Assembly: GCA_030651815.1 (NCBI GenBank)
Contig: JAUSBW010000212.1
Location: 1-38,677, forward strand
DNA: 38,677 nt
Direction of reading: 5' to 3'
Origin: Methanoregula sp.
GTDB lineage: Archaea > Halobacteriota > Methanomicrobia > Methanomicrobiales > Methanospirillaceae
The translations under genes and the position numbers were made by a program. The notes beneath the pieces are model-generated. The model had not been told where the DNA came from and did not search any database. It worked only from the letters and a program-made list of their open reading frames with translations. Positions 9,145 through 35,759 of this stretch are shown piece by piece. The number at the start of each line of letters is the position of its first letter. Positions within the stretch are counted from its first letter, which is position 1.

Positions 9145-9148
9145 ACGA

Positions 9149-13124: not shown

Positions 13125-13145
13125 GATTTTCCTCCTTCTTTTGTA

Positions 13146-14554: not shown

Positions 14555-14587
14555 TTTAAGTTCCGTTAACCCGCTGCAATATAGTAA

Positions 14588-16057
14588 TCATATCCTTAAC
14601 TGGAATAACACATCTGCCGTATATTCGAGAACCCCCGATAGCAGGTCCGGGTAGATGCCGATGATGATGCATAAACTAACCATAATCAGAATCGGCAGCA
14701 TCATGCAGACGGGCGGGTCCCTGACATTCCTGAACTCCTCTTTTTGCTTTCCCATGAACATCACGTAAAACACATGTATCAGACAGATGAAGGTAAGCGC
14801 ACTCGTAATCCATCCCAGAATAGCGAAAATGGTGAAGTGCACGCCAAAAACAGAAAAGATGACGGGATAACCAGCCTGGACAGAGCCCTCGTAAATGAGC
14901 TCCTTGCTCACGAAACCGTTAAGGAACGGTACGCCTGACATAGCAAGGGAAGCAATCAAAAAACTGGCGGCCGTCAGAGGCATCACCTTGCCAAGCCCGC
15001 CCATCTTATGGATCTGTCTGGTGTTCACGCGAAGGATAAGGGCACCCGTAATTAAGAATAAACAGCCCTTAAACAACATGTGGTTGGTGATGTGGAACAA
15101 TGCACCGTAAATGGCGGTGGGAGCAGCCAGCCCGAATCCCAGAATGATATAGCCCATCTGGCTGATGCTATGCCATGCCAGTAAACGCTTGATATCCTCA
15201 GATAGCAGGGCCATGATGACACCTATTAACATGCTGAGGATGCCGAAAGTGGTAACTATGAGGATGAGCGTTCCGGCGCCCGACATCAGATAGAACGGAT
15301 AGATGCACTTGACCATTGCTATGACGCCGGCCTTGAGGAGGATGCCGGACATCGTAGCGCTGATAGGAGGCGGAGCCTCGGAATGCGCCGGAGGCAGCCA
15401 GATACCACTCAAAGGCAATAAACCGGCCTTGGTGCCGAAACCGAAAAAGAAGAGCATGGCCAATAAAAACATAGTATTCTGGCTCATGCTACTGATATTC
15501 AATAAATATAAGTCCAGGGTGCCGGTCTCATTATAGAGAATGAAGGCACCAATGACCACCAGAATAACTTCGATGATGCTGATGGCCAGGTAAATGTATG
15601 TTGCTTTGATAGCCTGTTTCGTCCTGCCAAATAAGATTAAAACAGCGCTGGTGATTGTGGCCGCTTCCAGGAAGACGAGCATGACAATAACGTTATATGT
15701 GCACGCAAGGCCGCTCATCATGCCCATGAGCAGGAAATACATGATGAAATACGTGTTATCGTAATGCGTTTTATCTTTATAAACAAAGGAATAGAAGATG
15801 ACCAGCGCTCCGATGAACGCTACAAGACAGGATATAAAAATACCGGGGGCATCCAATACGATGGGGCCATATGACAGTGGATGAATGATATTCATCTGTA
15901 AGGCCATAAAATAGGACACGTTCAGCACGAATAGAACGACCGCAAATCCCATGAGAAACACGCGCTGGATCTTCTCCGGATATCTCCCGAGGAAATACGT
16001 GAGCAGGGCCCCAACGAGGGGTAAGATTACAGGCATGAGCGCCAGATATTCATACAT
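14588..16057 (-). CDS. Antiporter-like membrane subunit of group 4 hydrogenase (NuoL/M/N, HyfB/MrpD-like)
   Basis: 489 residues with about 14 membrane segments. It has the proton-pump signature of this family: FLEAATITSAVLILFGR with the conserved glutamate in helix 5, FGFGTKAGLLPLSGIWLPPA then HSEAPPPISA with the helix 7 lysine, L-S-E-D-I-K-R-L-L-A-W-H-S-I-S-Q-M-G-Y, and HITNHMLFKGCLFL. It would couple electron flow in the hydrogenase to proton or sodium translocation. Only one such subunit is encoded, as in Ech and CooM-type enzymes, whereas Hyf has three. It begins 90 bases after the small-subunit gene, the largest gap in the hydrogenase block. Confidence 0.9.
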   Translation of the reverse strand: MYEYLALMPVILPLVGALLTYFLGRYPEKIQRVFLMGFAVVLFVLNVSYFMALQMNIIHPLSYGPIVLDAPGIFISCLVAFIGALVIFYSFVYKDKTHYDNTYFIMYFLLMGMMSGLACTYNVIVMLVFLEAATITSAVLILFGRTKQAIKATYIYLAISIIEVILVVIGAFILYNETGTLDLYLLNISSMSQNTMFLLAMLFFFGFGTKAGLLPLSGIWLPPAHSEAPPPISATMSGILLKAGVIAMVKCIYPFYLMSGAGTLILIVTTFGILSMLIGVIMALLSEDIKRLLAWHSISQMGYIILGFGLAAPTAIYGALFHITNHMLFKGCLFLITGALILRVNTRQIHKMGGLGKVMPLTAASFLIASLAMSGVPFLNGFVSKELIYEGSVQAGYPVIFSVFGVHFTIFAILGWITSALTFICLIHVFYVMFMGKQKEEFRNVRDPPVCMMLPILIMVSLCIIIGIYPDLLSGVLEYTADVLFQLRI

Positions 16058-16147
16058 TGTTATACTCCAGAATCTGTATTTAAGTCAGTGAGGACGGTAG
16101 TCATGAGTTGTTTTGGCAGAAAATGATCCATTTGCTACACCGGTTTA

Positions 16148-16573
16148 TCAGGAATCAAATTTTCTCATCACTTTCAATATGCCATCGATAATGGTTTCCG
16201 GTTTCGGCGGGCACCCGGGTATCTTCACGTCAACCGGGATGATCTTTTCGACGGGGCCGGCTATGGAATAGTTCTCATTGTCAATGAAAATGCCGCATGA
16301 GCAACCGCATGCACCCACGGCGATGACACGTTTTGGTTCGGGTGTCTGGGCATAGACGCGTTCAAGGAACGGCTTTGTATGGAGAGGAACGGGGCCTGTC
16401 ACTAATAAAATGTCGGCACACCTGGGCGATGCGACAAATTTAACGCCCAGCCTCTCCAGGTCATATCGGGGACTCATTAAGGCTACTATCTCGATATCGC
16501 ATCCAAGACATCCTCCAGCGTGCACATGGTAAATCCATGGAGACTGCTTGATGAAGCTGTTCAAAAGACTCAT
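16148..16573 (-). CDS. Group 4 [NiFe]-hydrogenase small subunit (NuoB/HycG/EchC-like)
   Basis: 141 residues from the ATG at 16573, which overlaps the stop of the preceding gene (ATGA). It contains the proximal [4Fe-4S] cluster ligands GGCLGCD, GACGCSCG and PGCPP in the order typical of NuoB-like subunits, plus DILLVTGPVP. The short length without a signal peptide is normal for group 4 enzymes, which face the cytoplasm. It passes electrons between the NiFe site in the large subunit and the HycF-like ferredoxin subunit. Confidence 0.92.
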   Translation of the reverse strand: MSLLNSFIKQSPWIYHVHAGGCLGCDIEIVALMSPRYDLERLGVKFVASPRCADILLVTGPVPLHTKPFLERVYAQTPEPKRVIAVGACGCSCGIFIDNENYSIAGPVEKIIPVDVKIPGCPPKPETIIDGILKVMRKFDS

Positions 16574-17259
16574 GTGAACTTCCTCGGGTGCGTATTCCAC
16601 TCCAGACTGTGCATCCGCCTGCACGAAATACACGTCGTCAGGTATAGTTCCATGTCCTTCTTAACGATAGCAGCTGTTTCCGGCTTCAGGTTCTTTAAGA
16701 CCCTTTCCATAATAACATTCAGATGTTTTTCGGTGACAGGCATAACCTCCCCGCAAACAGTGCAGCGCTGCAATTTCAGCGTTGTATCGATGGCAGGGTT
16801 CTTCTCTTCGGAGCCATACGACACGTTAATCTGCTCTGTATACTTAAAGGATACTTCCGAATCCTCGTCCGAACCGCGTAAAGACCGGACACATGTATCA
16901 CCCACATCCCCTGTCGTTTTTAATAATTCTGAACGGAATTTCTTTTCCTCTTCTGTATCTGGCTCAATGGTCAGTTCTAATGCATGCTCCGGGCATACAT
17001 CGGCGCAACGGCCACAGAAAATACATCGCAGGCCGTCAATAGAGATCGTTCTTTCAGTGCCAATATCCGTGATGTTCGTAGCGCCACTGGAGCAGCGCTC
17101 GTTGCAGGCGCCGCACCCCGTGCATTTATCAGCGTCGCGCCTCGGCATCCACCGGAAATTTTTTGCTACGAATCCAAAAGTCTCTCTCACCGTAACGGGA
17201 TTACGGAAGACGTTTGTGATTAATTCGCCGAAGGCCTTGAATTTGCCTATAGTATTCAT
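16570..17259 (-). CDS. Group 4 hydrogenase polyferredoxin subunit (HycF/HyfH/NuoI-like)
   Basis: 229 residues from the ATG at 17259, overlapping the HycD-like stop by ATGA; a longer frame to 17454 would lie inside the upstream gene. It has two 4Fe-4S motifs, CTGCGACNERC (about residues 45-55) and CIFCGRCADVCP. A linker of about 80 residues follows, then a C-terminal pair CTVCG and CISCRRMH, a zinc- or iron-binding tail also seen in HycF and HyfH. It links soluble electron carriers to the small subunit. The C-terminal Cys pairs favour a formate-hydrogenlyase-like relative over Ech. Confidence 0.9.
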   Translation of the reverse strand: MNTIGKFKAFGELITNVFRNPVTVRETFGFVAKNFRWMPRRDADKCTGCGACNERCSSGATNITDIGTERTISIDGLRCIFCGRCADVCPEHALELTIEPDTEEEKKFRSELLKTTGDVGDTCVRSLRGSDEDSEVSFKYTEQINVSYGSEEKNPAIDTTLKLQRCTVCGEVMPVTEKHLNVIMERVLKNLKPETAAIVKKDMELYLTTCISCRRMHSLEWNTHPRKFT

Positions 17260-18185
17260 AGCACATACCTCCAGAGCACTGCCCATCCGATGGCAAGCAC
17301 CGATACAAGCAGGGGGATTTTGAAAAGCCACCGGGTCGCCTGATCTATTCTGAAACGGGCGAACAGGGAATTCATAAAACCGATTAACACGCCTGTGGCG
17401 ATAACCCCCGCCAGAAAGATAACCCAGGCCAAAGCACCCGATGATGGTATCCACAGAAACAAGTCCACGAACAATGCGATGAGTACGAATACCATAATGA
17501 TCCTGGCAGTCTCCAGCACGCCGAGCAGCTTGCCACCATATTCAGTTGTAAGACCGTTCACGATCTCAGTATCGGCCTCTGGTATGTCAAATGGCTTGAT
17601 GTGGAGCTTTACGATGATTGACAGGAGGACTGCCAGTGCCGCGAAAGGATTGATTAAAATGTTAAAGCCCATCATTTGCTGGATGGATAGTGTATCAAAA
17701 GTGATGGCTAACGCGAAGGTACCGAGGATAAAGGGTATCTCGTTGGCAAGCATAAGATCGATCTCCCTGACGCCCCCTATGGCAGAAAACAGTGAAGCGC
17801 TCGAGATGCCGCCCATGATAATGAAGAGGATCTCGCCCATCAGCAGATAGAATAGCACCACCAGACTGAATGAATAGTCGAATGATATGCCGGCTACCGG
17901 CACGAACAGCGTAGCCAGCACGGCGCACATGAGGGCCAATATCGGCCCGGCTATGAAAAATGGTGTCGCCGTGGAAGGTATGATGGTCTGCTTGGAGAAC
18001 AGCTTGATGATGTCATACAATGGCTGAAGGACTTTGCTCCGGTTGATGTCATGCCACCTGTCGGGCAGCCATATCAGCGGCCCCCGCCGGGATTGTACTC
18101 TGGCAGAGATCTTGCGCAGCTTAAATGAAAGCAGGATCCCAATGCTGAAGGCGATAACAGGATTCAGCCATGCCGCATCGATCAT
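17256..18185 (-). CDS. Group 4 hydrogenase membrane subunit (NuoH/HycD/EchB-like)
   Basis: 309 residues with about eight membrane segments. It shows the conserved quinone-site-like loops of this family: KISARVQSRRGP and PFDIPEADTEIVNGLTTEYG then GKLLG. It anchors the hydrophilic arm to the membrane and forms the start of the ion path. Its start overlaps the large-subunit stop by four bases and its own stop overlaps the ferredoxin-subunit start, so the genes are translationally coupled. Confidence 0.92.
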   Translation of the reverse strand: MIDAAWLNPVIAFSIGILLSFKLRKISARVQSRRGPLIWLPDRWHDINRSKVLQPLYDIIKLFSKQTIIPSTATPFFIAGPILALMCAVLATLFVPVAGISFDYSFSLVVLFYLLMGEILFIIMGGISSASLFSAIGGVREIDLMLANEIPFILGTFALAITFDTLSIQQMMGFNILINPFAALAVLLSIIVKLHIKPFDIPEADTEIVNGLTTEYGGKLLGVLETARIIMVFVLIALFVDLFLWIPSSGALAWVIFLAGVIATGVLIGFMNSLFARFRIDQATRWLFKIPLLVSVLAIGWAVLWRYVL

Positions 18186-19774
18186 CGCCTGCCTCCCAGT
18201 GACCGCATGTCGACAATGCTTTGCTCTTTACCTTTGAAGATCGTCACTCTGTCCGTGCAGGAGTAGCAGGGGTCAACACTGCTGATGATTGCGGGCACGT
18301 CAGCCAGCCAGCAGCCATGTATCAGCTCGAGCATGATACGGGCGTTAATGAAGGTAGGTACTCTGATGCGTACAAAGGCTGGCGTATTAGTGCCGTTCGA
18401 GACCACATGGTAGAGTAATTCGCCTCTTGGCGCCTCGCTCCTGGAGATAGTTTCACCGCATGGCAACTCGTTTACTTTGGCTGCGAGCGAAGATGGCGCA
18501 ATCTTTATTTTATCACAGCATTGTTCGCAGATATGCATGGACATGAGCGTCTCTCTCATCTTCACTTTTATGCGGGCCAGGCAATCGCACCCATTCTCCG
18601 TCACGATGTCCCAGTCAACATCTTCGTAGGCGGCGAAGGGCGAGTTCTTACGCACGTCTATCCTCAGCCCACTGCCTCTGGCTACAGGACCGATGGCCCC
18701 GGATTTCAGGGCATTTTCCCGCTTAAGGATGCCCACATCCTTAAGCCTGCCCATGAGCACGTCATTCGACTGGCACTGATCGAAGAACTGGGGCACCGAT
18801 TTTTTCATAATCTTTAATTTAGAGAGAATAAAATCGGTTTGATTCTCGGTAATGTCTCTGCGGATGCCACCTAATGCTATCAGCCCATGGGTAACCCGCT
18901 GGCCGGACACGACCTCAAGGCAGTCCTGCATCTCTTCCCGTATCCGTATCGCGTGCATGAGCATGGTGCGGAATCCGGTCAGGTCGCCGATCAGGCCAAT
19001 GGACAAGAGGTGGCTCTGGATACGCTCCATTTCGCATAATAAAGTCCTGGCCATCTGTGCCTTTTGGGGCACTTCAACAGCCGCCAGATCCTCCACGGAC
19101 ATGGCAAAGGATAAGGAATGGTGCGTATTACAAATGCCGCATACACGCTCCGCTAAAAAAAGGTCCTTGTAATAGTCGCGCCGCTCCATAAGTTTGATGA
19201 TGCCCCTGTGGTTGAAACCCAGCTTCAGGTCGGCCTTCCTGACGACCTCATCCTCAACGGACATTTTTAAATAATTACTTTCGATGAACGCCGGGTGATA
19301 CGGGCCATACGGTATCGTCGTCAGAGGCAGTGTAACGATGTTATCCTTGAGAGGTTTTACCGGAGGAGCCGTGTTGATTCTCTCTGTATCAGGGTGGGCT
19401 ACGGGCTTTTCCCCAGTGTAAATTTCCTTCCAGTCCAACGGCAGCCACAGGTGCGTGGGGTTCGGGTGGCCCTCTACCGTAATGCCTAAAAACTCGATGA
19501 GCTCCCGTTCAGACCAGTCTGCCTGGCTCGTGACAGGCGTGACCGAATGGATAACGGGGTTCTTCCTGTCCAGATACGTCCTCAATATGGTATGCTGGCT
19601 TGGCTCGTGATGGTCGAAGCAGAAGTAATAGTTGACCTGAATGCCCCGGACTCCCATGTCCACGCCGGAGGTGTAGATCATCCGGGCTCCCTTTTCCAGG
19701 AGATCGCTCACCTCTTCTCCAAGGGTATCTGCCTTGATCTCCCTGATGATGAGATTCAGGTGTGGCTTACTCAT
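18182..19774 (-). CDS. Group 4 [NiFe]-hydrogenase large subunit with fused NuoC-like domain (HycE/HyfG-like)
   Basis: 530 residues. Residues 1-120 are a NuoC (30-kDa) domain with FCFDHHEPSQH and ADWSERELIEFLGI; residues 140-530 are the NuoD-like catalytic part. Both nickel-binding motifs are complete: ERVCGIC (C212, C215) and DPCYSCTDR (C503, C506). This is therefore a true hydrogenase, not a complex I remnant. A 21-residue tail follows R509, the expected target of the HycI protease encoded downstream. The fusion and tail are as in HycE of formate hydrogenlyase; CooH and EchE lack the fusion. No formate dehydrogenase gene is present; the cdh genes upstream take its place. Confidence 0.94.
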   Translation of the reverse strand: MSKPHLNLIIREIKADTLGEEVSDLLEKGARMIYTSGVDMGVRGIQVNYYFCFDHHEPSQHTILRTYLDRKNPVIHSVTPVTSQADWSERELIEFLGITVEGHPNPTHLWLPLDWKEIYTGEKPVAHPDTERINTAPPVKPLKDNIVTLPLTTIPYGPYHPAFIESNYLKMSVEDEVVRKADLKLGFNHRGIIKLMERRDYYKDLFLAERVCGICNTHHSLSFAMSVEDLAAVEVPQKAQMARTLLCEMERIQSHLLSIGLIGDLTGFRTMLMHAIRIREEMQDCLEVVSGQRVTHGLIALGGIRRDITENQTDFILSKLKIMKKSVPQFFDQCQSNDVLMGRLKDVGILKRENALKSGAIGPVARGSGLRIDVRKNSPFAAYEDVDWDIVTENGCDCLARIKVKMRETLMSMHICEQCCDKIKIAPSSLAAKVNELPCGETISRSEAPRGELLYHVVSNGTNTPAFVRIRVPTFINARIMLELIHGCWLADVPAIISSVDPCYSCTDRVTIFKGKEQSIVDMRSLGGRR

Positions 19775-20048
19775 CTTTCACACTCCCGAATGGTGTTTTT
19801 GGAGTGTACATCTCTTCCTGATTGAGGTAGATCCCGCTCGCGCCGCAATTAAAATTCTCATCCGTATTCCTGTACTCAGGGAATAATGATGGGATGATTA
19901 CCGAGAAGAAAATGTAGAAAGATACCAGCGACGCCAGTTCTGCGAAGAGGAAAAAGATGATAGTCATACCACTTTCGTTCGAAAGGAATAAAGTCCCCAG
20001 CACGCTGATGACAAGGATAAATATGGCGATGATGAAGTACGGTTTCAT
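19767..20048 (-). CDS. Small membrane protein of the hydrogenase cluster
   Basis: 93 residues with two hydrophobic segments (about 4-22 and 27-54) and a soluble tail. The tail contains ENFNCGASGIYLNQEEMYTP and then KTPFGS. This resembles the end of HyfB/HycC-type subunits, where a C-G pair is followed by M-x-Y-T and S-F. It may therefore be a detached C-terminal piece of the antiporter-like subunit. It overlaps hdrB upstream by 4 bases and the large-subunit gene downstream by 8, so it is certainly part of the block. Function is otherwise unknown. Confidence 0.7.
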   Translation of the reverse strand: MKPYFIIAIFILVISVLGTLFLSNESGMTIIFFLFAELASLVSFYIFFSVIIPSLFPEYRNTDENFNCGASGIYLNQEEMYTPKTPFGSVKDE

Positions 20049-20962
20049 TGTACGCTGGTCTCCAGTTTTTCTATGAGCGTATCGACCGGTGCCGTCCGCA
20101 TGTAGCGCATGCCGATATCGTCCGGCCTGAGGCCGTACGAGATTGCCAGCAGCTCTGCCAGATGGATGACTGGCACGTCGAAATCGTATCCGTCAGTCTC
20201 CTTTAAGGTTTTCGAGGCTCTCTCGAACTGGTCGTAGCATCCCGCACATACGAGAACCAGTGCGTCGACGTTTTGGGCCTTGACTGAGTCGAACTTCCGC
20301 TTGGCCCGGTCATAGGTGGCAAACTCCCTGTCGGCGAGGTTACACTGCAGACCGCAGCACATACGTTCGCAGTCATAGGGCACGACCTCATCCACCAGGG
20401 CTTCAGTCAATTCGGTGAAATACCGGACCAGGTGGCCGTCTTCGAAGATACGCATATGACATCCGGGATGGATGGCAACTCTGATGTGGATCTTTTTGGC
20501 CTCTCTTCTGATGCGCTCAATCCCTACCTCCTCATATAATACCTCCAGCAGGTGCCGGATACGTATGTCGGCTTCGTAGTGTTTACCCGCAGCCGCCAGG
20601 TATTGATTCACCATTGCCAGGTCTTCGGGGTTCTCCTTCAGCACCTTATTGGCCTCGTATAGCGTAACATAGCATCCATTGCATGAGACCAGGACATCAC
20701 GGCCTGCACTCTCGGCCTGTAATAAATTGTAAGATGCGAGCGTCAGCCAGACGCGCCTGTCGACCGATATCCAGACTCCGGCTCTTGGACAGCATCCGGA
20801 CTTCGGCAGATATTCCAAGTCAATGCCCAGCCCTGGCAGGGTCTTCATGATGGCCGACTCGGCCCAGGGCATCTTCGCCGGCATAACACAGCCAAGAAAA
20901 TGCGCATATTTGGACCTGACTGCAGCCGGATTAACTTTATTTACAATTGGCAGATCAGTCAT
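20045..20962 (-). CDS. hdrB: Heterodisulfide reductase subunit B-like (two CCG domains)
   Basis: 305 residues from the ATG at 20962; a longer frame to 21121 would lie in the upstream gene. Both cysteine-rich CCG motifs are complete: C25, C57-C58, C94-x2-C97 and C168, C202-C203, C239-x2-C242. In HdrB these bind two non-cubane [4Fe-4S] clusters that reduce the CoM-S-S-CoB disulfide. No hdrA gene is present, and the place of hdrC is taken by a short protein without cysteines. It sits between a ferredoxin gene and hydrogenase genes, all overlapping. A role as terminal electron acceptor module in a membrane hydrogenase complex is inference; another disulfide or sulfur substrate is possible. Confidence 0.88.
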   Translation of the reverse strand: MTDLPIVNKVNPAAVRSKYAHFLGCVMPAKMPWAESAIMKTLPGLGIDLEYLPKSGCCPRAGVWISVDRRVWLTLASYNLLQAESAGRDVLVSCNGCYVTLYEANKVLKENPEDLAMVNQYLAAAGKHYEADIRIRHLLEVLYEEVGIERIRREAKKIHIRVAIHPGCHMRIFEDGHLVRYFTELTEALVDEVVPYDCERMCCGLQCNLADREFATYDRAKRKFDSVKAQNVDALVLVCAGCYDQFERASKTLKETDGYDFDVPVIHLAELLAISYGLRPDDIGMRYMRTAPVDTLIEKLETSVQ

Positions 20963-21230
20963 TAAACCGGTACTCCATTTTCTCCAGGTCCAGGCCCATG
21001 TTTTTGTCGATCTCCATCGCCTTAACGATCTTCTGGATATCCTCGACCGCTTCATGATACCTGTGAGCAGTTGGCGGTATGGGATCCAGCCCGGCTTTCT
21101 TCCTGACCTCCATGAGCTCATCAGTCACCGGATAAAGCAGCCCGATGGAGAAGTGCCTGATGAGCTGTGGCTTCACTGATGATGGCAGCGGTATTTTCAC
21201 GGGCCGCCGCCACGGGTATAACTCCTTCAT
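20955..21230 (-). CDS. HdrC-like stub protein lacking Fe-S cysteines
   Basis: 91 residues from the ATG at 21230, overlapping the ferredoxin stop by ATGA; its end overlaps the hdrB start by 8 bases. It has no cysteine. The middle part (PQLIRHFSIGLLYPVTDELM, then EVRKKAGLDPIPP) resembles the helical region that follows the two ferredoxin motifs in HdrC, and the order stub-hdrB is the normal hdrC-hdrB order. The cluster-binding part may have been handed to the separate ferredoxin upstream. It could act as a docking piece between that ferredoxin and HdrB. The HdrC resemblance is weak and read by eye. Confidence 0.6.
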   Translation of the reverse strand: MKELYPWRRPVKIPLPSSVKPQLIRHFSIGLLYPVTDELMEVRKKAGLDPIPPTAHRYHEAVEDIQKIVKAMEIDKNMGLDLEKMEYRFND

Positions 21231-21712
21231 CTTTTCAGTCTCCCTACGATTTCCTTGCCTTCCTCTCTCGATACGAATTTTATTGCCTTGGCTGAGCACA
21301 CTTTGATGCAGTCAGGATCCCCGCCGCACATGTCGCACTTTGCCATGGCTTTCAAGCCTCGTTGTATTTGCGGTATGGAGATGGGGCAGGCCCACATGCA
21401 TGCCTTGCAACCGATGCACAGCATTTTATCTATCGTCACAAAGCCCGTAGCTTCGTCCTTACAGATCGCGTCCACAGGGCATACTGCCATGCACATGGGG
21501 TCCTTGCAATGCTGACAATACACCCTGACGAACTCGCTATTCTGTCCGTTAATGACCTTGCAGAGTGAAAGGTCATAACTGTAAGTCTGATAATTCTTAA
21601 AAGAACAGGCTGTCATGCACTGCCTGCAGCCCGTGCACAGGTCCGGGTCATGGACGATTACCTTAGTCAAAGGATTACCGGAGTATTTCGCAATGTCAGT
21701 GTCAGCAGTCAT
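21227..21712 (-). CDS. CooF/HycB-like four-cluster ferredoxin
   Basis: 161 residues with four cysteine groups: CTGCRQCMTAC, CQHCKDPMCMAVCP, CIGCKACMWACP and CDMCGGDPDCIKVC. This is the CooF/HycB/DmsB pattern, predicted to hold four [4Fe-4S] clusters. CooF carries electrons from CODH to the membrane hydrogenase in carboxydotrophs, and HycB does the same from formate dehydrogenase. Here the gene lies between the CODH/ACS activase and the HdrB/hydrogenase genes, overlapping both neighbours by ATGA, which supports the role of electron link. Direct partner unproven. Confidence 0.9.
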   Translation of the reverse strand: MTADTDIAKYSGNPLTKVIVHDPDLCTGCRQCMTACSFKNYQTYSYDLSLCKVINGQNSEFVRVYCQHCKDPMCMAVCPVDAICKDEATGFVTIDKMLCIGCKACMWACPISIPQIQRGLKAMAKCDMCGGDPDCIKVCSAKAIKFVSREEGKEIVGRLKR

Positions 21713-23562
21713 TTTTTGTGTTCCTTGTAACTGTCAGGAAACAGCTCACGTTTTCCGGGGATATACAGTGCTGCAGAATATTCTTCCATGAAATCGGTAT
21801 CCACTAAAAGATCAATGTAGACCATGTCCAGGGCAACCTTTTCTGCCATGATCCGGTACTCGCGCGAGACGAGGGTGGCATATGCTCCTGAAAGGGACCC
21901 ATTGCCCAGGGGGTGAAATGCAGCATCTGGAAATTCCGGAAGAATTCCGAACCGCACCGTATTGCCGATATCGGTATAGGTGCCAAATGCCCCTGAAAGA
22001 TAGACATGCCGGATATCAGTAACGGCAATCCTGTATTTCCCCATGAGCACACCGATAGCTCCGCATGCGGCAGCTTTCGAATCCATAAGATAATCAACGT
22101 CCTGCTGGGTGAACACCAGGTCGCGCCCGGTGGCAGAAGCAGATGCCGGGATGAGCACATATTCCAGTCCTTCGGATCCGTTCCGGACCCGCGGGTGCCG
22201 GGAATTGAGTTTGCCGGCAAAATCGAGGGCACTGGATGCAACCATGGCGACTGCAGCATCAATAATTCCCGAACCACAGATACCCCGGGGGGGCACGTTC
22301 CCGATGGTTGAACAGATGGTCTCTGCCGTCTCAGGATCAAAGCGGACGTGCTCAATCGCACCGTTCATCGCCCGCATGCCGCACGTAATGCCCCCCCCCT
22401 CAAACGCAGGCCCGGATGCGCAGGAGACCGATGCCATCCAGTCTTTGTTCCCAAGAATGATCTCCCCGTTGGTTCCGAGATCGATAAGAAGGGATAGATC
22501 TTCAGAGGCATGCATCCCCGACGCGATCACATCTCCGATGGCATCCCCTCCCACAAACCGACTGACATTGGGGAGGCAGTACACCTGTGCATCCGGGTGC
22601 AGGCAAAGTCCCAGTTCTTTTGCGCTTTTGATGAGGGGAGTGCGCGGGATCTGTGCGTTTGCCATCTCCAGATAGTGCGGTTCGATCCCGCAGAACAGGT
22701 GGTGCATCACCGTGTTTCCGGCAACACATATGTCCACGATGTCTGTTTTGCCGATACCTGCTGCACCGGAAATCTGAGTGATAACCGTGTCAATACTTTC
22801 CCTCGCTGCCTTCTGCATCGTGGCGAGCCCCTCTGGTGAATCAGCAAACCCGATTCTTGTAATCAGTTCCTCACCATAGGTAATCTGACGGTTCATGGTT
22901 GATCCGGTCTCCACGATCTCACCGGTTTGCAGATTGACAAGGCATCCGACAACAGTGGTTGTACCAAGATCTATGGCAACCCCGTATAGTGGTCGTGCAC
23001 TGGCAGCAGGCTCAACGGCAATTATTTTAGGGGGTGTAAATACGTGTGAGATAGTGGCGATAAGTGGTCCGGTTGTTGTATTGAGCCTGTGGTAAACCTG
23101 TTCACACGTGCGAGGCCGCGGCCCCAAATATCCCGCGAGACGGATTGACTGCGAGGCAAACGGCAACCCTTCCGAGGGGGAAACCTCCACCGGGTAATTC
23201 ACAACCGCAGGAGAGATCGTGGTGATATTCATTTTATTGGAGATCAGGATTTGCGGCAGAACGATCCTGCTCTCCACGGGTATGGTAAATCCAGCATCCG
23301 CGGTTAGTGCCACCTGACAGGCATAATGGTATCCCTGTGCAATTTCCTCCGGTGTGAAATGGGAAGCGCCCAGCTGGGAGGTGGCGGTACATTTTCCTTT
23401 CGTGAGTATGACCCGGCACTTCCGGCACAGTCCCTGTCCGCCGCAGATTGCCTCAATGGCAATGCCCGCAGTCCGCATCGCATCCAGAAGCGGCGTATCA
23501 ACCGGAACAGTCAGTACCTTGTTCATCGGCTGGAATGTTACAATGATTGTTTGTTCAGTCAT
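21709..23562 (-). CDS. Corrinoid-activating ASKHA protein with 2Fe-2S domain (RACo/AcsV-like)
   Basis: 617 residues. The N-terminal 2Fe-2S ferredoxin domain has ligands C40, C46, C49 and C82. From about residue 190 comes the ASKHA ATPase core: YGVAIDLGTTTVVGCLVNL, a middle N-R-Q-I-T-Y-G-E-E-L-I-T-R-I, and LLIDLGTNGEIILG (DUF4445). Such proteins use ATP to return oxidised Co(II) corrinoid to Co(I); AcsV/RACo does so for the corrinoid iron-sulfur protein of acetogens. It lies 76 bases after cdhE, which encodes the corrinoid subunit. This bacterial-style activase inside an archaeal cdh operon is notable. It overlaps the ferredoxin gene by ATGA. Confidence 0.9.
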   Translation of the reverse strand: MTEQTIIVTFQPMNKVLTVPVDTPLLDAMRTAGIAIEAICGGQGLCRKCRVILTKGKCTATSQLGASHFTPEEIAQGYHYACQVALTADAGFTIPVESRIVLPQILISNKMNITTISPAVVNYPVEVSPSEGLPFASQSIRLAGYLGPRPRTCEQVYHRLNTTTGPLIATISHVFTPPKIIAVEPAASARPLYGVAIDLGTTTVVGCLVNLQTGEIVETGSTMNRQITYGEELITRIGFADSPEGLATMQKAARESIDTVITQISGAAGIGKTDIVDICVAGNTVMHHLFCGIEPHYLEMANAQIPRTPLIKSAKELGLCLHPDAQVYCLPNVSRFVGGDAIGDVIASGMHASEDLSLLIDLGTNGEIILGNKDWMASVSCASGPAFEGGGITCGMRAMNGAIEHVRFDPETAETICSTIGNVPPRGICGSGIIDAAVAMVASSALDFAGKLNSRHPRVRNGSEGLEYVLIPASASATGRDLVFTQQDVDYLMDSKAAACGAIGVLMGKYRIAVTDIRHVYLSGAFGTYTDIGNTVRFGILPEFPDAAFHPLGNGSLSGAYATLVSREYRIMAEKVALDMVYIDLLVDTDFMEEYSAALYIPGKRELFPDSYKEHKK

Positions 23563-23638: not shown

Positions 23639-25096
23639 TTATACCCCGGAGGTGTTTGCGGGTGCATCTTTTGGAGGCCACCGTGTTTTTAAGAGTTCTG
23701 CAATGCCGGAGGAATCCTTTGGACCGACAATCACGTGCCAGCCGCTTGCTTCTTCGGTCTCCCCGCTCAGGCGGGCGGCAAGCCCCGGGATGATCAGGTG
23801 CCGGTGATCTACAAGATCTGCGACATTGAATTCCTGCAGGGCATTTGCTATAGTACCAGCAGTCAACAACCTGCCGGCAACTGCACTCTCTACGCTGTTG
23901 CCCCCGGTATCAGCGATAATCAGGTAACAGTCGATGTTGGCAGATTTGATGTCCGATTCTACTGTGAAGAAGGTAAGTGCATAGTTGGTCGTGATAAGTA
24001 CTGGAGATCTCCTGTCCGGCGAACCCATTATCCTGACGCCAGCCTCAACAGCAACCGGTTTGCGGGGGTCGGTATAGATATTGAACCGCCAGATCATCTG
24101 GGGCAGGAGCACCCACCCTTCGAGACTGTGCATGATCAGCATATCGGCGTACCGGGAAATGAGCATCGATGCGATACATGCTTCCTTCCACCGGAGCACA
24201 TCCGGGGAAATTTCCGGGGACAGCCATGCGGTGATGGGTGTTCCGAGAAGCGGGTAACCGAGCAGTTCATCGTTCTGCTGGAAAACCGAGCGGCGGATCC
24301 GGGAAAAGTCCTGGATAGTTGCAGCAAGGTTCGGATCGACCGATGTCCCGGGATCAAGCACGAGATCGGAAACGCCATATTCAACAAGTGTTTTCACCAA
24401 GGATCGCAGGAGGGCGATATCATGGGGGGCGGATACCACAAGCGGGCAGTGGTACTGCAGGGCAAGTTCCGCCATCTCCTTCCAGTTATCACGGGTGGCC
24501 GCATAGAGAAGCGGGCGCCGCTCTTTAACAGGGGCAAGCCCTGCTGCCATGATTGCCGGATCATACGTGCACAGTATGAAGGGGAGATCTGTCTGGTAGG
24601 CAACATCCTTTACCGTTGAAGCAAACGCGTCGGGATCATGCAGGGTTGAGCGGATGGCAATTGCATCCAGCCGCAGGTTACGCCCGATATACGTATAGTC
24701 AAATGAACTGATCATCTTTACCCGGGCATCCCGCTCATCTTTCGTCAGATCATCTGCAACATCGATTGCTATGGGCGTAGGATTATGGTACGTGAATTCG
24801 TGGCGGTAGAGGACATATTTCCCCCCGATCTTTATTGCCCGGTCACCGGTACCGACGGTGATCGTCTTGACCGGCGGTGCCATAAGCCGGAGCAGTTTTT
24901 CGTATGCTACCCGGTATTTGGTATTATTGATCAACGGTGGGCAGTTATCGATAGTGAGTTCTCCGTTCACGACCCGTGTGGCAAATGCCATGCAGTTTGC
25001 CTCCTGGCATTCACCGCAGTTTGTCTTCGGGAGGGACTTGTAGATGTCGATAGGGCTGATCTCTTTTATGGTTTTTTTGTGTTCTTTTTCTGACAT
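23639..25096 (-). CDS. cdhE: CODH/ACS corrinoid iron-sulfur protein, large subunit (gamma)
   Basis: 485 residues. The N-terminus has TNCGECQEANCMAFATRV then C-P-P-L, the [4Fe-4S] motif of CdhE/AcsC. The middle forms a TIM-barrel (about 90-320). The C-terminal third (VLITTNYALTFFTVESDI then IADTGGNSVESAVAGRL) is the corrinoid-binding domain. With CdhD it carries the methyl group between tetrahydrosarcinapterin and the A-cluster of CdhC. It follows cdhD by 15 bases in the order cdhABCDE. Confidence 0.96.
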   Translation of the reverse strand: MSEKEHKKTIKEISPIDIYKSLPKTNCGECQEANCMAFATRVVNGELTIDNCPPLINNTKYRVAYEKLLRLMAPPVKTITVGTGDRAIKIGGKYVLYRHEFTYHNPTPIAIDVADDLTKDERDARVKMISSFDYTYIGRNLRLDAIAIRSTLHDPDAFASTVKDVAYQTDLPFILCTYDPAIMAAGLAPVKERRPLLYAATRDNWKEMAELALQYHCPLVVSAPHDIALLRSLVKTLVEYGVSDLVLDPGTSVDPNLAATIQDFSRIRRSVFQQNDELLGYPLLGTPITAWLSPEISPDVLRWKEACIASMLISRYADMLIMHSLEGWVLLPQMIWRFNIYTDPRKPVAVEAGVRIMGSPDRRSPVLITTNYALTFFTVESDIKSANIDCYLIIADTGGNSVESAVAGRLLTAGTIANALQEFNVADLVDHRHLIIPGLAARLSGETEEASGWHVIVGPKDSSGIAELLKTRWPPKDAPANTSGV

Positions 25097-25111
25097 GCTT
25101 ATTCCCTCCTG

Positions 25112-26365
25112 TTAGATCTTTGTTGTCGCCCAGTTGGCGAAGTGATCCGTGGTCACTGCCATGTCTCTCTGCATGAGCATGTTCACCGTCTCTTTCAATG
25201 TCCTGATGGCTGCGGGATGCATCATCATGAAGATATCCACCCCCGCAAGGAGCAGGGTGATACCATTTATTGTCTCCCAGAGCGGACCCCGCAGTTCCCG
25301 TGATCCGTACTTCGGATCCATCTTCATCCATGCCTCCCTCGCCGCCCATGCATTTGTGGCTGCAGAGATCGTTGGATGCTGGAGTTCCGTATCTCCCATC
25401 AGTGCCGCATGCCGGGCGCGTTCATGAATGGTAAATGAATACTCCAGGCCGTACCCGAGTGCAACGGTGGTGAGATCCATCACGATATCCTCAGGGGGGA
25501 GGTATTCGTAGAGCCTGCGGTTCATCTCTTTTGCCTTGTTCAGGTCAAGCCCGGTAAACCCGAGAACGGCATGACCGTGCTCTTTTGCTGCCAGTGCCAC
25601 ACCCTCAAGGGTCTTTGCATTGGCCATATCCAGGGTAAGGGAGTTAAACAGTACCCGTTCACCTGCAGCGATCTCTGCAACTTTTTTGAACACCTCTGCA
25701 TCCTTGTGCGGATCGCCGCACCCGCCGATAATCAGGGGTACGTCCACTGCCTGCAGCACCTCCTCAACAGTTCGCGCTGCATCTGCAGGTGACCTGTCAC
25801 TGATGAGCGGGTCAGTGGACATGAGATGGACAGTGACCATATCCGCGCCAAATTTTTTGACGTTCATCCGCGCCCATTCTGCCGGATCGCTCATCACGTC
25901 CTTAATATTGGCTTTAAGCGCCATCGGCAGGTGCAGATCTGTATCAAAAACATCGAGAGCAAATACCGGGGGATGGACGGGGGGCTTGTCCGCATATACA
26001 AACGGCCGGGAATTGGCCCCGCCAATGACTACAGATCTTCCCCTGCTCCCTCCTTCGCTTTTTGTTGCACCCAGCCGGACTTCGCGGATGCTGCCTGTGA
26101 ATTCCTCTTGTGGGGGGACAAATGTCTCCGAAAGGAGCGAGGTTGGTTTTACTCTGGCTGCCGCCGGAGAACCTGAGATGACCGTGGATGACTGAGAAGG
26201 TGTAATGGACGTTCCCATCATAGGTATCCAGAGTTCAAGGTCCCCAATCTCCATGGAGAAATTCTCAAATTCCATCTTCTCTACGCCGGAGAGCAGCGAA
26301 AGAAAGCGGGGTATGGCATCCTGAAATGCTTCGTTTCCTTTCCGGTTGTTGTTATGATCGCACAT
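25112..26365 (-). CDS. cdhD: CODH/ACS corrinoid iron-sulfur protein, small subunit (delta)
   Basis: 417 residues, normal for archaeal CdhD. An N-terminal region of about 75 residues (FENFSMEIGDLELWIPMMG) leads into a TIM-barrel with LPMALKANIKDVMSDPAEWA, ADMVTVHLMSTDP, VPLIIGGCGDPHKD and NSLTLDMANAK. It pairs with CdhE, binds the corrinoid on one face and takes part in methyl transfer. It begins one base after the cdhC stop, with no cooC between them, unlike the Methanosarcina operons. Confidence 0.96.
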   Translation of the reverse strand: MCDHNNNRKGNEAFQDAIPRFLSLLSGVEKMEFENFSMEIGDLELWIPMMGTSITPSQSSTVISGSPAAARVKPTSLLSETFVPPQEEFTGSIREVRLGATKSEGGSRGRSVVIGGANSRPFVYADKPPVHPPVFALDVFDTDLHLPMALKANIKDVMSDPAEWARMNVKKFGADMVTVHLMSTDPLISDRSPADAARTVEEVLQAVDVPLIIGGCGDPHKDAEVFKKVAEIAAGERVLFNSLTLDMANAKTLEGVALAAKEHGHAVLGFTGLDLNKAKEMNRRLYEYLPPEDIVMDLTTVALGYGLEYSFTIHERARHAALMGDTELQHPTISAATNAWAAREAWMKMDPKYGSRELRGPLWETINGITLLLAGVDIFMMMHPAAIRTLKETVNMLMQRDMAVTTDHFANWATTKI

Positions 26366-26366
26366 G

Positions 26367-27764
26367 TTATTCGCCCTTCCTCATATCTTTCGGCTTGATC
26401 GTCTGGACGATCACGCGATCTGCATAGATCCGTGCATTCTTTAAGATGATCTTAAAACCACCTGTGGTAATGGGAAAATCCCCTCCGGCAAACACCTGCA
26501 CTGCAGCGGGCCGGACCTTGTCTTCTCCACTCATGCTCTCTTCCTCCTCCGTCTCCCAGCGCTCCACGACCGGATGCGAGCCGGACATGAGAAAATCACG
26601 GAGCTCGCTTACTGTTTTCACATCCAGTTCTGTTGCAATTTTATCAAAAAGTGTGACCGGGATGCACTCTTTCATCTGTTCTTTTAAGTCAGAAGGCATC
26701 CAGGCAACGCGGCTATATCCACCGTCAGCGATCATGAATTTCGGAGACCGCATATATTCAAGGGATATGCCGTGGAACCCGTCCACCTGCCGTCCACCAC
26801 CGGTGGAATCTGCCATAGCCGAAAACGGCAGCCCGTTCACGGTGATAGCGGAGTATCCCCGCATCACGATCCCGAAGCCATCAACTTCAGGGATATAGAA
26901 TGCGATACCCTCAAAGCACCCGCATGACGTGTGCGGGAATGCAAACGCACTGTAGAGGTAGATCCGGTTCACCTCTCCAAGCGAGCGTTTCTTTGCGCTC
27001 TCGTTAATTCCGGCAAACTCACCCTTTTCGGTATCAAGGCATTCGCCTTTTTCAATGGCGAAAATGGGACCTTTTGGATCGATCCGTGCTGCTGCCCTGC
27101 CGTCAAGCCAGCTGATCGCACCGCAGTTCGCATACCGCTGTGGGGTGATCATACATACGTGGCTTGGCGCAAACGACTGGCAGAGGGCGCACCCGTAGAA
27201 TACGTCCACGTCATCGTCTGTCAGTCCCCGTGCACGGGCGTCACGGGCTTCATATGCGCTCCTTGCCTCGATATAGACAGGTGAAATTTTTTCCGCGTCA
27301 GTGTAGAAGGTAATCTGAATCCGCTCGATCATGGGCAGTTCGCTTTTCAGGAGACGTTCAAGCACCATGCCCACAAATCTGAGGCTCGTAAACCTGCGGT
27401 TGAATGCCTTTTTGCAAACCCGGGTCCATATGTCGTAGCGCTGGTTCAGGTGCATGAATCCTTCGATATAATTTGTATATTCGTGAATACGGCGCTCGAT
27501 CACCCCCTCGATATCCTCTTCAAGATCTTTGCCGGCGATCTCGACCAGGATTCCCAGCGGATATTTATTCCCGGCCTCCATCGCGGAGATGTCGGGGCCG
27601 ATAATATTGATCAAACCATCGGTAACCTGATTAAGCGCCCGCACTCTGACCAGTTCGAATTTTTCCTCAATATCTGGTCCGCCAAGCTCAACGTACATGT
27701 CAGTTTTACGGATCCGCTCACCTGCATGCACGAGCCCGACATCGACCGGTATATCCTTAAACAT
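26367..27764 (-). CDS. cdhC: Acetyl-CoA synthase, CODH/ACS beta subunit
   Basis: 465 residues; archaeal CdhC lacks the N-terminal CODH-docking domain of the bacterial enzyme, and so does this one. A-cluster ligands are complete: C192, C195, C204 and C214 for the [4Fe-4S] part and C281-G-C283 for the two-metal site (HTSCGCFEG). It makes or splits acetyl-CoA from methyl-corrinoid, CO and CoA. A Glu-rich linker near residues 400-410 precedes a small C-terminal domain, as in other methanogens. It starts 5 bases after cdhB. Confidence 0.97.
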   Translation of the reverse strand: MFKDIPVDVGLVHAGERIRKTDMYVELGGPDIEEKFELVRVRALNQVTDGLINIIGPDISAMEAGNKYPLGILVEIAGKDLEEDIEGVIERRIHEYTNYIEGFMHLNQRYDIWTRVCKKAFNRRFTSLRFVGMVLERLLKSELPMIERIQITFYTDAEKISPVYIEARSAYEARDARARGLTDDDVDVFYGCALCQSFAPSHVCMITPQRYANCGAISWLDGRAAARIDPKGPIFAIEKGECLDTEKGEFAGINESAKKRSLGEVNRIYLYSAFAFPHTSCGCFEGIAFYIPEVDGFGIVMRGYSAITVNGLPFSAMADSTGGGRQVDGFHGISLEYMRSPKFMIADGGYSRVAWMPSDLKEQMKECIPVTLFDKIATELDVKTVSELRDFLMSGSHPVVERWETEEEESMSGEDKVRPAAVQVFAGGDFPITTGGFKIILKNARIYADRVIVQTIKPKDMRKGE

Positions 27765-27769
27765 CTCTC

Positions 27770-28354
27770 TCAGTCCTCCACGTGCTCAATGATTGCTTTT
27801 AAGTTCTCCAGCCAGTCCCTGCCAGATATATTTGAAAACGACCAGCACGCGTGAGGCTGGTACGTATTGTCGAGCGTCATGGTCCTGATCTGTGGGGCGA
27901 AGTGTTTGAGTCCTGACAGGATCGTGGACTCCATATAATTCGGCAACCCGGCAAAAATTGCGAGGTCGTAAGGTCCTTTTCCGTCAATCCCTTTCCAATC
28001 AGGGTCTGTGAGCCGGTGTCCGATCTCAATTGCCGGCATGATCCCTGCTTTGGTGTAATCACGCTCAAGGAGCGCCGGGTTCGTATGTGGTGTTGCGATG
28101 ACCGAAATATTGCCCTTTTGCGCCAGCTCAAGAAGGTAGTCGAGCATCTTTTTATCATCAATGTCAATCTCTGCCGCACGGTGCCCGATGATCAGGACAG
28201 GGTGTTTCGCCTTCCTGATACCATCTCCCCAACCCATACTTCCCATGCCACGGCGTCCGATGATTCGGACAGAATGTTTTGCCCTCCTGATGCTGCCCGA
28301 TGCTGTTTCCGGTCCTGCGACCCCGGCAATCTGCCGCGGTTCAATAATTGTCAT
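27770..28354 (-). CDS. cdhB: CODH/ACS epsilon subunit with internal N-terminal duplication
   Basis: 194 residues, longer than the usual ~170. The core has HPVLIIGHRAAE, VIATPHTNPALLE, GPYDLAIFAGLPNYME and DNTYQPHACWSFSN. The epsilon subunit binds CdhA tightly and may hold FAD. The extra length comes from a repeated segment: RRAKHSVRIIGRRG and then RKAKHPVLIIGHRA, 24 residues later. In DNA this is a 72-base tandem copy (28184-28219 and 28256-28291 match at about 30 of 36 positions). The start at 28354 lies a few bases after the cdhA stop with AAGGAG upstream. Confidence 0.93.
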   Translation of the reverse strand: MTIIEPRQIAGVAGPETASGSIRRAKHSVRIIGRRGMGSMGWGDGIRKAKHPVLIIGHRAAEIDIDDKKMLDYLLELAQKGNISVIATPHTNPALLERDYTKAGIMPAIEIGHRLTDPDWKGIDGKGPYDLAIFAGLPNYMESTILSGLKHFAPQIRTMTLDNTYQPHACWSFSNISGRDWLENLKAIIEHVED

Positions 28355-28360
28355 ACTTCT

Positions 28361-30718
28361 TCACAGCTCCTTTTTTATGATCTGATGTGACAGGAGCGTT
28401 GGATCGGGAATGATCGTCTCCTTCCAGCCCCGTTCCTCAAGCACCCGCGTTATCTCTCCTTTCATGGTAACGGGGACGTCCATTGCGGTCCGCACAAACA
28501 GGTGAATATCATCGGGAATGGTGCCAAAAAGCTTCCGGTGGAGGTCGATGTAATGTGTGAGCTTGGTCGCCCTGCCCTTTACGGTGTCGTTCGGGCGCAT
28601 GCAGAGTTTGGCGATCATCACCATCGCCTCTTCCTTGGTCTCTGCGGCAAAGAACAGGTGCTCGGGAACCGGTCCGACATACACCTTCTCACCGGTCCGC
28701 CGGTCGTGCACGTACCAGTCCTGCTCCCGATCTGCTCTCCCGAGCAGCATCCGGCGATACTTTGTCCCGTGCGGTCCGACCACAACGGGGATGCCGAGGC
28801 GCCAGAACCCGCTCATGATCGACGCTGCTTTCTGGGACATCGCCCCCCATGCAACGCCAACCGCCCCGACACGGTTGTGGACATAATCCGCGATCTCTTC
28901 GTAGTTTCCCCGCAACGGGCGTCTGCCAAAGATGCTCGCAATCTTGACTGCCGCCCCTGAGATATGGGCGTTTGCAACACAGGGGCCCACATTCACAATG
29001 CCTCCCGCTTCAAAGGATCCCGGATACATCTCGTACGCGGTTTTACCCTCCTCGTTCCGGTACATACCGGCTGACATCGCAGAACACCCGGATGTACAGA
29101 CAATATACCGCCGCTTTGCAAACTCCATGCACATCTCCGCAACCTCTTGGCCTCCTTTCGGGTAATTCGAACAGCCGACAAATGCCACTACGCCGGGTAT
29201 GTCTCCCAGAACAATCGGACCTCCTACCTTCCGTATCTCGGTGTCCTGTATCGCACCCCTGCCGGTACGGATCTTAAAGGTTTCCTCCCGCATCTTCTGC
29301 GCAGCCGCGGAAACGATCATGGTGTAGAGGGGAATCTCCTGCGGACATACCTGTTCACAGCGGGCACAGCCAGCACACTCGTCGTATATGTCTATGAGTT
29401 TCCTGAAATTGCCCTGGCCTGCCGCCTTTATGCTTTCAGGGATGTTTAGCTCGTTGGGACACGCACGCTGGCACACCAGGCACATATTGGACTGGGTGCA
29501 GATCTTCGCATAGTCGATGATCTCCTGAGAGGGGAGTAACGTGCCGGATTTTTTCCGCTCCGGTGCCACCGCACATGCAGTTCTGACGGCAACTTCTCCC
29601 ACCTTATCTGGATCGAGAATGAGGACGCCGGGAGCTTTCCCGCTTACGAGGTCAGCAACAATCTCGTCGGCAGGATCCCGTGTCCGGTCGGTAAGACCCA
29701 GGCAATTCTTTTCCGAGGTTGCAATGAAAGGTGCCCGGATGCGCTCCGCTTCGATGAGGCTGTCGCAGCGGATGCACTGCTCATCCACGACGATCACATC
29801 TGGAATGCCGCTCCGGATATACCGGAGCTGCCATGACATGGGTCCGATGATCTTTGCCTTCGGTGAATACCGCGTTGCATCGATTGCGGTGCAGCAGATC
29901 CCCGTGACCTCAACTTCGTCGGAAAGGCGTTTGTCTTTAAGGTAATCGATGATATTAATTGCAGGAAGGACGTTGTGTCCGATGACAAGAATGACCGGTT
30001 TTTTTGTGTCCACAACCCCCATGCCGAGTTCCACAAGCGGGGCGTCTGGATCCGCTTTCGGGAAACCGAATACAGAAATCTGGGCGATATCGGCGACTTC
30101 CATCCCGACCTGGTCGATCATGCCGGCATGAAGCACTTTTGACTCAAAGTCGAGGTGATTGCCTTCCTGCCCGGTATGGGTGGCGGAGAGGAGCTGGGTG
30201 AGCTGGTTTTCGAGATAGTCGAGCACAGTTTCAAGGTCGCCAAGCGTTTCGGGTTTAATGCCGCACACAAGCCGTATGGTGGGCGCCTCGACCCCGACTG
30301 CAAGCCCGCCCGTATCGAGCAGGTGATCGCTCCCGAACTTCTGGATTGTATGCGTAACAAGCTCCCGTGCATGGCTGGTGTGTGTAGCGGCTCCAATGCA
30401 GGCAGCCAGAAGGTAGGTGCGGGATTGTTGCGTCGACATGTTGATCCCACACGCTCCCCGCTTATTACCCGTGAGATCGCATTTCCCGTAGGTGCAGAGA
30501 TCGCAGTGATCACTGAATGGCAGGTAAAACGGCTGGTATCGCGCAAGAAGTTTTTTATCCCAGTTGCGAAGGGCAGTCATCGAGGGGAAGGGTGTTGGCC
30601 CCTGAAGTTCGGTCCAGTTGTCCTGCCTGAATTTTCCTATGGAGATCTCAAGATCCTTAATCTTCCCGATATCGGACTGCAGTTCCCTGATTTTGAGATT
30701 GATGCCCTTATCCGTCAT
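28361..30718 (-). CDS. cdhA: CO dehydrogenase, CODH/ACS alpha subunit
   Basis: 785 residues from the ATG at 30718 (a GTG at 30727 is also in frame). N-terminal Fe-S ligands are C72, C75, C80 and C90. Two ferredoxin-type motifs typical of archaeal CdhA lie at about 407-420 (CTQSNMCLVCQRACP) and 448-458 (CAGCARCEQVCP). C-cluster candidates include H249, C315 (DEQC), FVGCSNY, TSGCSA and GPCVANAH. It catalyses reversible oxidation of CO to CO2 and gives electrons to ferredoxin. I chose the ATG because it overlaps the stop of a short upstream frame (ATGA) derived from the start of an acs gene, which suggests coupled translation. Confidence 0.96.
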   Translation of the reverse strand: MTDKGINLKIRELQSDIGKIKDLEISIGKFRQDNWTELQGPTPFPSMTALRNWDKKLLARYQPFYLPFSDHCDLCTYGKCDLTGNKRGACGINMSTQQSRTYLLAACIGAATHTSHARELVTHTIQKFGSDHLLDTGGLAVGVEAPTIRLVCGIKPETLGDLETVLDYLENQLTQLLSATHTGQEGNHLDFESKVLHAGMIDQVGMEVADIAQISVFGFPKADPDAPLVELGMGVVDTKKPVILVIGHNVLPAINIIDYLKDKRLSDEVEVTGICCTAIDATRYSPKAKIIGPMSWQLRYIRSGIPDVIVVDEQCIRCDSLIEAERIRAPFIATSEKNCLGLTDRTRDPADEIVADLVSGKAPGVLILDPDKVGEVAVRTACAVAPERKKSGTLLPSQEIIDYAKICTQSNMCLVCQRACPNELNIPESIKAAGQGNFRKLIDIYDECAGCARCEQVCPQEIPLYTMIVSAAAQKMREETFKIRTGRGAIQDTEIRKVGGPIVLGDIPGVVAFVGCSNYPKGGQEVAEMCMEFAKRRYIVCTSGCSAMSAGMYRNEEGKTAYEMYPGSFEAGGIVNVGPCVANAHISGAAVKIASIFGRRPLRGNYEEIADYVHNRVGAVGVAWGAMSQKAASIMSGFWRLGIPVVVGPHGTKYRRMLLGRADREQDWYVHDRRTGEKVYVGPVPEHLFFAAETKEEAMVMIAKLCMRPNDTVKGRATKLTHYIDLHRKLFGTIPDDIHLFVRTAMDVPVTMKGEITRVLEERGWKETIIPDPTLLSHQIIKKEL

Positions 30719-30813
30719 GTGCTCCACACCAGGCTTATGCGTCTTTTGTACTGCGGGTCGGGTGTGTAATCCTTCACATCGTCGACGAGTTTGACATCAG
30801 ATGATTCCTTCAT
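30715..30813 (-). CDS. Truncated acs 5' end kept as leader reading frame of cdhA
   Basis: A 32-codon frame from the ATG at 30813 to TGA at 30715-30717. Its product begins MKESSDVKLV and continues D-D-V-K-D-Y-T-P-D-P-Q-Y-K-R; Acs in this window begins [10 protein letters not shown] and continues [14 protein letters not shown]. About 15 of the first 24 positions agree, so it is a former acs start. The remaining nine codons are unrelated. AAGGTG lies upstream as in acs. The TGA overlaps the cdhA ATG. Translation of the leader would bring ribosomes to cdhA; the peptide itself probably has no role. Confidence 0.8.
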   Translation of the reverse strand: MKESSDVKLVDDVKDYTPDPQYKRRISLVWST

Positions 30814-31176
30814 TCTTTTCGCACCTTTTTTGGGTTCCGGTTATACCAGATACTTGTAGGAGATGCCCTGAACCGGAATTTCATCCAATCCGGCATCCTT
30901 ATGTTCAGCGTCGTGAAAACGACCTCTATTCTACAATTGACACCTTACGGTAAGTACGGTTCAATTGCACAAGGGTTCGCAGGGGAACCAGATCATCACA
31001 GAACGCGGAAGTTAAAAAAACTTCCCCGATACTTCCGCAAGAAGAGAATTACAATGATTCTCTTTCTACTGCACTACTTCCTGATACACTGCCATCTTTC
31101 GGATTCTTCCCTCCTGTTGAAACAATCTAACATGATTAATCATTATAATTAAAAAAGCCTTTTGGTTGTAAATATC
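30743..31176 (-). repeat. Direct repeat copy 2: acs-type leader in front of cdhA
   Basis: Same orientation and nearly the same length as 11901-12328, aligning from the far promoter region down to about codon 23 of acs. Upstream of 31176 and downstream of 30743 the similarity ends. Because the copy includes acs coding sequence, cdhA appears to have acquired the acs control region, not the reverse. The repeats bracket 18.4 kb containing cdhA to the second CooC gene. Confidence 0.85.
31007..31149 (-). promoter_or_regulatory. cdhA promoter/leader elements
   Basis: These mirror the acs elements. ATTACAATGATT lies at 31048-31059, with its inverted partner at 31138-31149 (one mismatch). AGAGAAT-N7-ATTCTCT at 31043-31063 is unchanged. 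The hairpin has arms 31007-31013 and 31019-31025 (GGAAGTT/AACTTCC); where acs has a C-G closing pair, this copy has T-A, so pairing is kept. TTTTTTAATTATAA on the minus strand (about 31144-31157) is the best TATA candidate, giving a leader of about 300 bases. A long regulatory 5' leader of cdh mRNA is known in Methanosarcina, but homology to it is not claimed. Confidence 0.5.
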
Positions 31177-35640: not shown

Positions 35641-35759
35641 TTTATAATCTCTTCTCTCATTGATCTCATAAACGGGGCGTGCAGGTTTTTTTCTGGGCCG
35701 AAGCACTCCTATATTGCGTCCATATACCATACGCGTCACCCCGGATTTTGTTTAGTACG

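Follow-up and report, generated by a model that had tools for sequence, protein, structure and literature searches.

What brings the start of an acetate--CoA ligase gene (acs) directly in front of cdhA, the gene of the CODH/ACS alpha subunit, and what does it do there? The question is raised by a contig of a Methanoregula sp. genome (the window, 38,677 nucleotides), which belongs to one metagenome-assembled genome of 285 contigs and 3.28 Mb. A preliminary description had seen in this locus an amputated acs start whose expression signals were captured by the cdh operon, and had proposed that translation of this leader, coupled to that of cdhA, matches the expression of Acs and CODH/ACS.

The leader frame (30715..30813, minus strand) comprises 32 codons and its translation is MKESSDVKLVDDVKDYTPDPQYKRRISLVWST*. 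Within the genome, its sole real match is the intact acs gene at 11971-10076 (64% over residues 1-25, E 3e-5); a weak third match on contig C245, considered as a possible second acs, is due to chance and sits within a histidine-kinase frame. The start region of the leader is near-identical to four acs starts and the ribosome-binding site is still present (aaaaaaGGTGcgaaaagaATG), with its GGTG (30822..30825, minus strand) spaced as in acs and an anti-SD duplex of -6.3 kcal/mol, against -7.3 for acs; since this start region is intact, the leader is probably translated. Its TGA (30717-30715) overlaps the cdhA ATG (30718-30716) as ATGA at 30718-30715. The acs N-terminus with its ribosome-binding site directly before cdhA, and the overlap of stop and start, are therefore as first described, and no such leader was found in the cdhA flanks of any other genome compared. 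The extent of the feature had been understated: the frame is real, its acs-derived part amounts to ~25 codons (themselves mosaic, see below), and homology to acs reaches ~360 bp farther upstream.

Indeed, positions 30791-31176 align with positions 11949-12328 at 82% identity (391 aligned columns, E 8e-104), and this repeat of ~385 bp carries the entire acs control region, namely the operator, a ~310-nt 5' UTR, the ribosome-binding site and the first codons. Copy 1 (30791..31176) is upstream of cdhA and copy 2 (11949..12328) is upstream of the intact acs, beginning ~25 bp past cooC2; the two share the minus strand and, as direct repeats, bracket the 18.4-kb cdh/hydrogenase cluster. Copy 1 is moreover 88% identical to the acs upstream region of another genome (G011:C128). 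That the UTR spread on a mobile element present in many copies was considered and rejected, as the genome contains just two copies. The control region at cdhA is homologous to that of acs and missing from cdhA orthologues, as in promoter capture, and the proposed capture of acs expression signals by the cdh operon is borne out by the copying of operator, long 5' UTR, ribosome-binding site and start together. The similarity between three acs-type control regions (edges at 31176, 12328 and L109:2199) starts at one common base (GATATTTACAACCAAAA), whereas their flanks are unrelated; this shared edge may be either a functional promoter edge or a recurrent recombination edge.

The order of the genes points to the rearrangement that would have brought this region to cdhA. 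On the minus strand, cdhA (28361..30718; TIGR00314, 1146 bits) is followed by cdhB, cdhC, cdhD and cdhE (23639..28354), by genes for a corrinoid activator (RACo/AcsV-like), a ferredoxin and a CCG-domain (Hdr-like) protein (20045..23562), by membrane-bound NiFe-hydrogenase-like genes (NuoCD, H, I, B, M-like) with a HycI protease (14063..19774), the large subunit of this module retaining RVCGIC and DPCYSC, by cooC1-cooC2 (12354..13943), by acs (10076..11971; TIGR02188, 870 bits) and, downstream of acs, by genes for a Usp/DUF485 protein and an SSF permease (ActP-like; 7654..9874). All relatives with readable flanks, Bathyarchaeota included, have the order cooC1-cooC2-cdhA-B-C-D-E, as far as each contig extends, and RACo comes next after cdhE in the longer Methanoregula contigs. 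The core genes are the same as in this canonical cooC1-cooC2-cdhABCDE-RACo cluster, and cdhA is mostly 65-81% identical, but in the source genome the operon is permuted: cooC1-cooC2 is displaced from before cdhA to the far end, before acs, with the hydrogenase module in front of it, while an acs promoter stands before cdhA. The farthest genes of the cluster are up to 18 kb from this promoter, so that they may not all be co-transcribed. An ancestral U32-acs neighbourhood split by the cluster was rejected, U32 adjoining none of the acs genes examined. Elsewhere in the window, a large repeat protein is encoded at positions 35679-38144; its tandem unit measures 141 nt, and a repeat of 92 nt (35549, 38083) lies on either side.

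The position of the joint was read from a relative (G027) in which cooC2 ends ~130 bp before cdhA and the sequence preceding cdhA is cggttgtggagcacGTG; the equivalent flank in the source genome is ctggtgtggagcacATG. Because 'tgtggagcac' before the cdhA start is common to both, the final ~7-8 codons of the leader (ISLVWST and the stop) are not acs but native cdhA 5' flank into which the frame continues. By the same comparison the joint lies ~15-20 nt before the cdhA start, the native promoter region being gone, and cdhA keeps its own ribosome-binding site, GGTGTGGAG (GGTG; 30722..30730, minus strand), now inside the leader frame. This native sequence at the cdhA side also bears on the reading that the joint is neutral or an assembly artefact without effect on expression. 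The source is a fragmented metagenome-assembled genome and the joint occurs in one genome only, which would suit such an artefact; however, the retained flank, together with an operator, UTR and start that are all intact in the copy, argues against it, and the two repeat copies differ by ~20% and are therefore not an assembly duplicate. We consider this reading very improbable.

The copied region contains an operator-like palindrome, ATGATTAATCATG (palindrome form ATGATTAATCAT), located at 31131..31143 (minus strand) just downstream of the TATA-like TTTAATTATA, ~330 nt before the leader start; the second exact match in the genome is at acs (12283..12295, minus strand), ~324 nt before the acs start. 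The corresponding motif, ATGATTAATMATG, occurs exactly at two sites only in the 3.28-Mb genome, those of acs and of the leader. With at most one mismatch it was found upstream of 23/23 acs genes examined, usually 29 nt ahead of the start, and upstream of 0/24 cdhA genes of relatives, the motif having been defined after inspection of these same sequences. Since many of the 23 acs loci were retrieved through their similarity to the region under study, the genome-wide count and the count in 108 family genomes, where 147 motif sites were found vs 10 for the reversed control (totals summed from a per-genome table), weigh more. Among 46 motif sites that were examined, 16 precede acs and 20 precede the gene of a 638-aa NuoL/EchA-like hydrogenase membrane subunit, mostly at 50 nt or less, and 5 of the remaining 10 precede porC (pyruvate synthase gamma), in one genus; the porC of the source genome also lies behind a one-mismatch site. 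Judged from these sequences, the motif marks acs, an Ech-like hydrogenase operon and porC across Methanoregulaceae (e.g. L161-L176, L131-L160), and we infer that it acts as an operator. The natural reading would be a regulon for making and using biosynthetic acetyl-CoA, through Acs, ferredoxin reduction by the hydrogenase and pyruvate synthase. This small acs/ech/por regulon is apparently undescribed so far: a literature search, with most subscription journals outside its reach, returned neither a description of this operator nor any work on how acs is controlled in Methanoregula.

Two further sites deserve mention. One (G000:C150:9372) is a one-mismatch operator, ATAATTAATCATGATAGATT, in a context like that of one of the two acs types described below (type A), with no clear gene behind it. 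At the other (L140, G072:C48, motif at 3787), the operator is followed by an acs start and then by just the last ~47 acs residues, which may reflect either an internal deletion that left a second acs remnant or a gap in the assembly. With regard to the hydrogenase itself, the EchA-type protein, with full-length matches of 54-92% identity in most relatives, is missing from the source genome, where the best match has 34% identity; that the hydrogenase inside the captured cdh operon replaces it is suggestive only.

The leader is not, however, the simple local remnant that the term 'amputated acs start' implied. Genome G011 holds two acs types, A with a long UTR (C128) and B with a short UTR (C554). 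Leader codons 1-8 match type A at 23/24 positions and type B at 14/24; codons 9-24 match type B at 39/48 positions (up to 42/48 in other species) and type A at 28-30/48 (about 58-62%), a score of 30/48 or less having a probability of 4e-3 to 5e-6 at the identity level of the UTR (80-88%). The UTR of the leader is 88% identical to the type A UTR of G011 and 80% identical to that of the local acs, and in a UTR quartet with G121 as outgroup the informative sites favour the grouping of leader and G011 by 9:1:3. The local acs is also mosaic, type A in its first 30-40 codons and type B in its body, and windowed identity places its switch later, after codon ~26-50. Given this A/B mosaic and a UTR nearer to another species' acs, the leader is probably not a simple copy of the present downstream acs; the idea that it was copied recently from the 5' end of the local acs was rejected on account of the mosaic and the quartet sites, and its origin seems to require two or more recombination events between acs types. 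At L109 (G011:C128), the type A acs control region is immediately preceded by an integrase/transposase-like gene (judged by eye from the sequence), a possible carrier of the promoter.

The captured region includes a 5' UTR of ~310 nt (30814..31125, minus strand, from a putative transcription start; best-supported core 30904-31066). Similar long UTRs are found upstream of acs in G011, G121 and G131, with folding z-scores of -2.1 to -3.3 (-2.1 for the captured copy), and consensus hairpins show a few compensatory changes across 5 sequences from ~3 lineages, too few for a claim of structured RNA. The captured UTR is thus a possible structured RNA. A search against Rfam families gave no match at gathering score or at E<=1, and a wide RNA family was discarded, the covariance model recovering just its 5 input copies (4 at acs, 1 at cdhA) in the 108 family genomes. 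A further idea, which we hold to be unlikely, is that the long 5' UTR of acs represents a novel cis-regulatory RNA that senses a signal of acetate or acetyl-CoA status and was moved intact before the CODH/ACS-hydrogenase operon; if true, one DNA operator and one RNA switch would govern two acetyl-CoA routes. According to Anderson et al. 2009, as cited in PMC3600222, CODH/ACS of Methanosarcina is under 5' leader control; going by that description, the two cases are alike in having a 5' UTR before a methanogen cdh operon, and unlike in that the UTR captured here derives from acs.

Whether the leader also acts through its translation was considered separately. The coupling put forward in the preliminary description, in which ribosomes coming from the acs-derived leader would terminate at the ATGA and restart on cdhA, is a serious possibility that we rate somewhat below even, and the evidence for it is mixed. 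The overlap exists in a leader whose start region is near-identical to those of acs, and in the predicted fold the cdhA site is mostly paired, its GGUGUG with ACACACC of the leader codons (unpaired probability 0.29). In Haloferax volcanii 9/9 tested overlapping pairs are strictly coupled, and in E. coli ATGA overlaps are mostly coupled (PMC6728339). The arrangement resembles the termination-reinitiation described there by its 4-nt overlap and by a ribosome-binding site within the upstream frame, and differs in that the upstream frame is here a 32-codon gene fragment and the coupling a predicted one. However, cdhA retains its native GGTG, whose duplex of -5.6 kcal/mol is within the -5.2 to -9.0 of its relatives, and the local fold around this site is no more stable than shuffled sequences. 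In addition, cdhA has an NTGA start in 19/22 relatives, so that the ATGA overlap follows from the frame alone, with a 1 in 3 chance, and a frame accumulating 6-10 substitutions without selection would stay open with a probability of 0.5-0.6.

Selection on the leader peptide was not detected: codons 9-24 have 2-3 synonymous vs 4-6 nonsynonymous nucleotide changes. Together with the retained cdhA site and the low identity of these codons to the type A acs whose UTR the leader carries, this lack of any sign of purifying selection fits a leader that is an inert scar, with cdhA initiating independently from its own site and only the capture of promoter and UTR being of consequence. We regard this as tenable but short of probable, since, with intact start signals and an ATGA overlap, a degree of coupling would be difficult to escape and the cdhA site is itself predicted to be paired.

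Considering these data together, we propose, as a probable explanation, that the cdh operon captured an acs control region through rearrangement and that an acs-type promoter drives the permuted operon. Duplication of the acs control region, from the operator through the long 5' UTR and ribosome-binding site to codon ~25, would have supplied a copy that was fused to cdhA at its native 5' edge and took the place of the promoter situated, in relatives, between cooC2 and cdhA; with the promoter so replaced, the acs-type promoter would transcribe the permuted cdhABCDE-RACo-hydrogenase-cooC1C2, and the cdh operon would enter the small regulon (acs, Ech-like hydrogenase, pyruvate synthase) supplying biosynthetic acetyl-CoA and pyruvate. 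In this scheme, the homology, the distribution of the motif, the permuted gene order, the mosaic and the retained cdhA ribosome-binding site are direct observations, the transcription start, the co-expression and the order of the recombination events are what we infer from sequence comparison, and the transcriptional capture itself appears well supported. The leader frame would be a by-product of the fusion that may help cdhA initiation. Matched expression of Acs and CODH/ACS, as first suggested, is a likely outcome, but a leader-peptide mechanism is disfavoured relative to transcription and the shared UTR: the matching would arise mainly through the common operator and UTR, probably via the operator, and Acs and CODH/ACS, both makers of acetyl-CoA, would then probably answer to one signal.

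As in other promoter captures by rearrangement, a gene set would have gained a foreign control region and a truncated gene start is left behind; the present case differs in that a long 5' UTR and start codons form part of the control region, that the operon which received it is permuted, and that the products of donor and recipient yield one and the same metabolite. The locus would offer a concrete example of how regulation is rewired in an uncultured methanogen: the CODH/ACS promoter would have been swapped for the one serving the alternative route to acetyl-CoA, in a genome without the hydrogenase that usually bears this operator. It also exposes a simple and apparently unreported putative operator that would link acs, an Ech-like hydrogenase and pyruvate synthase across Methanoregulaceae.
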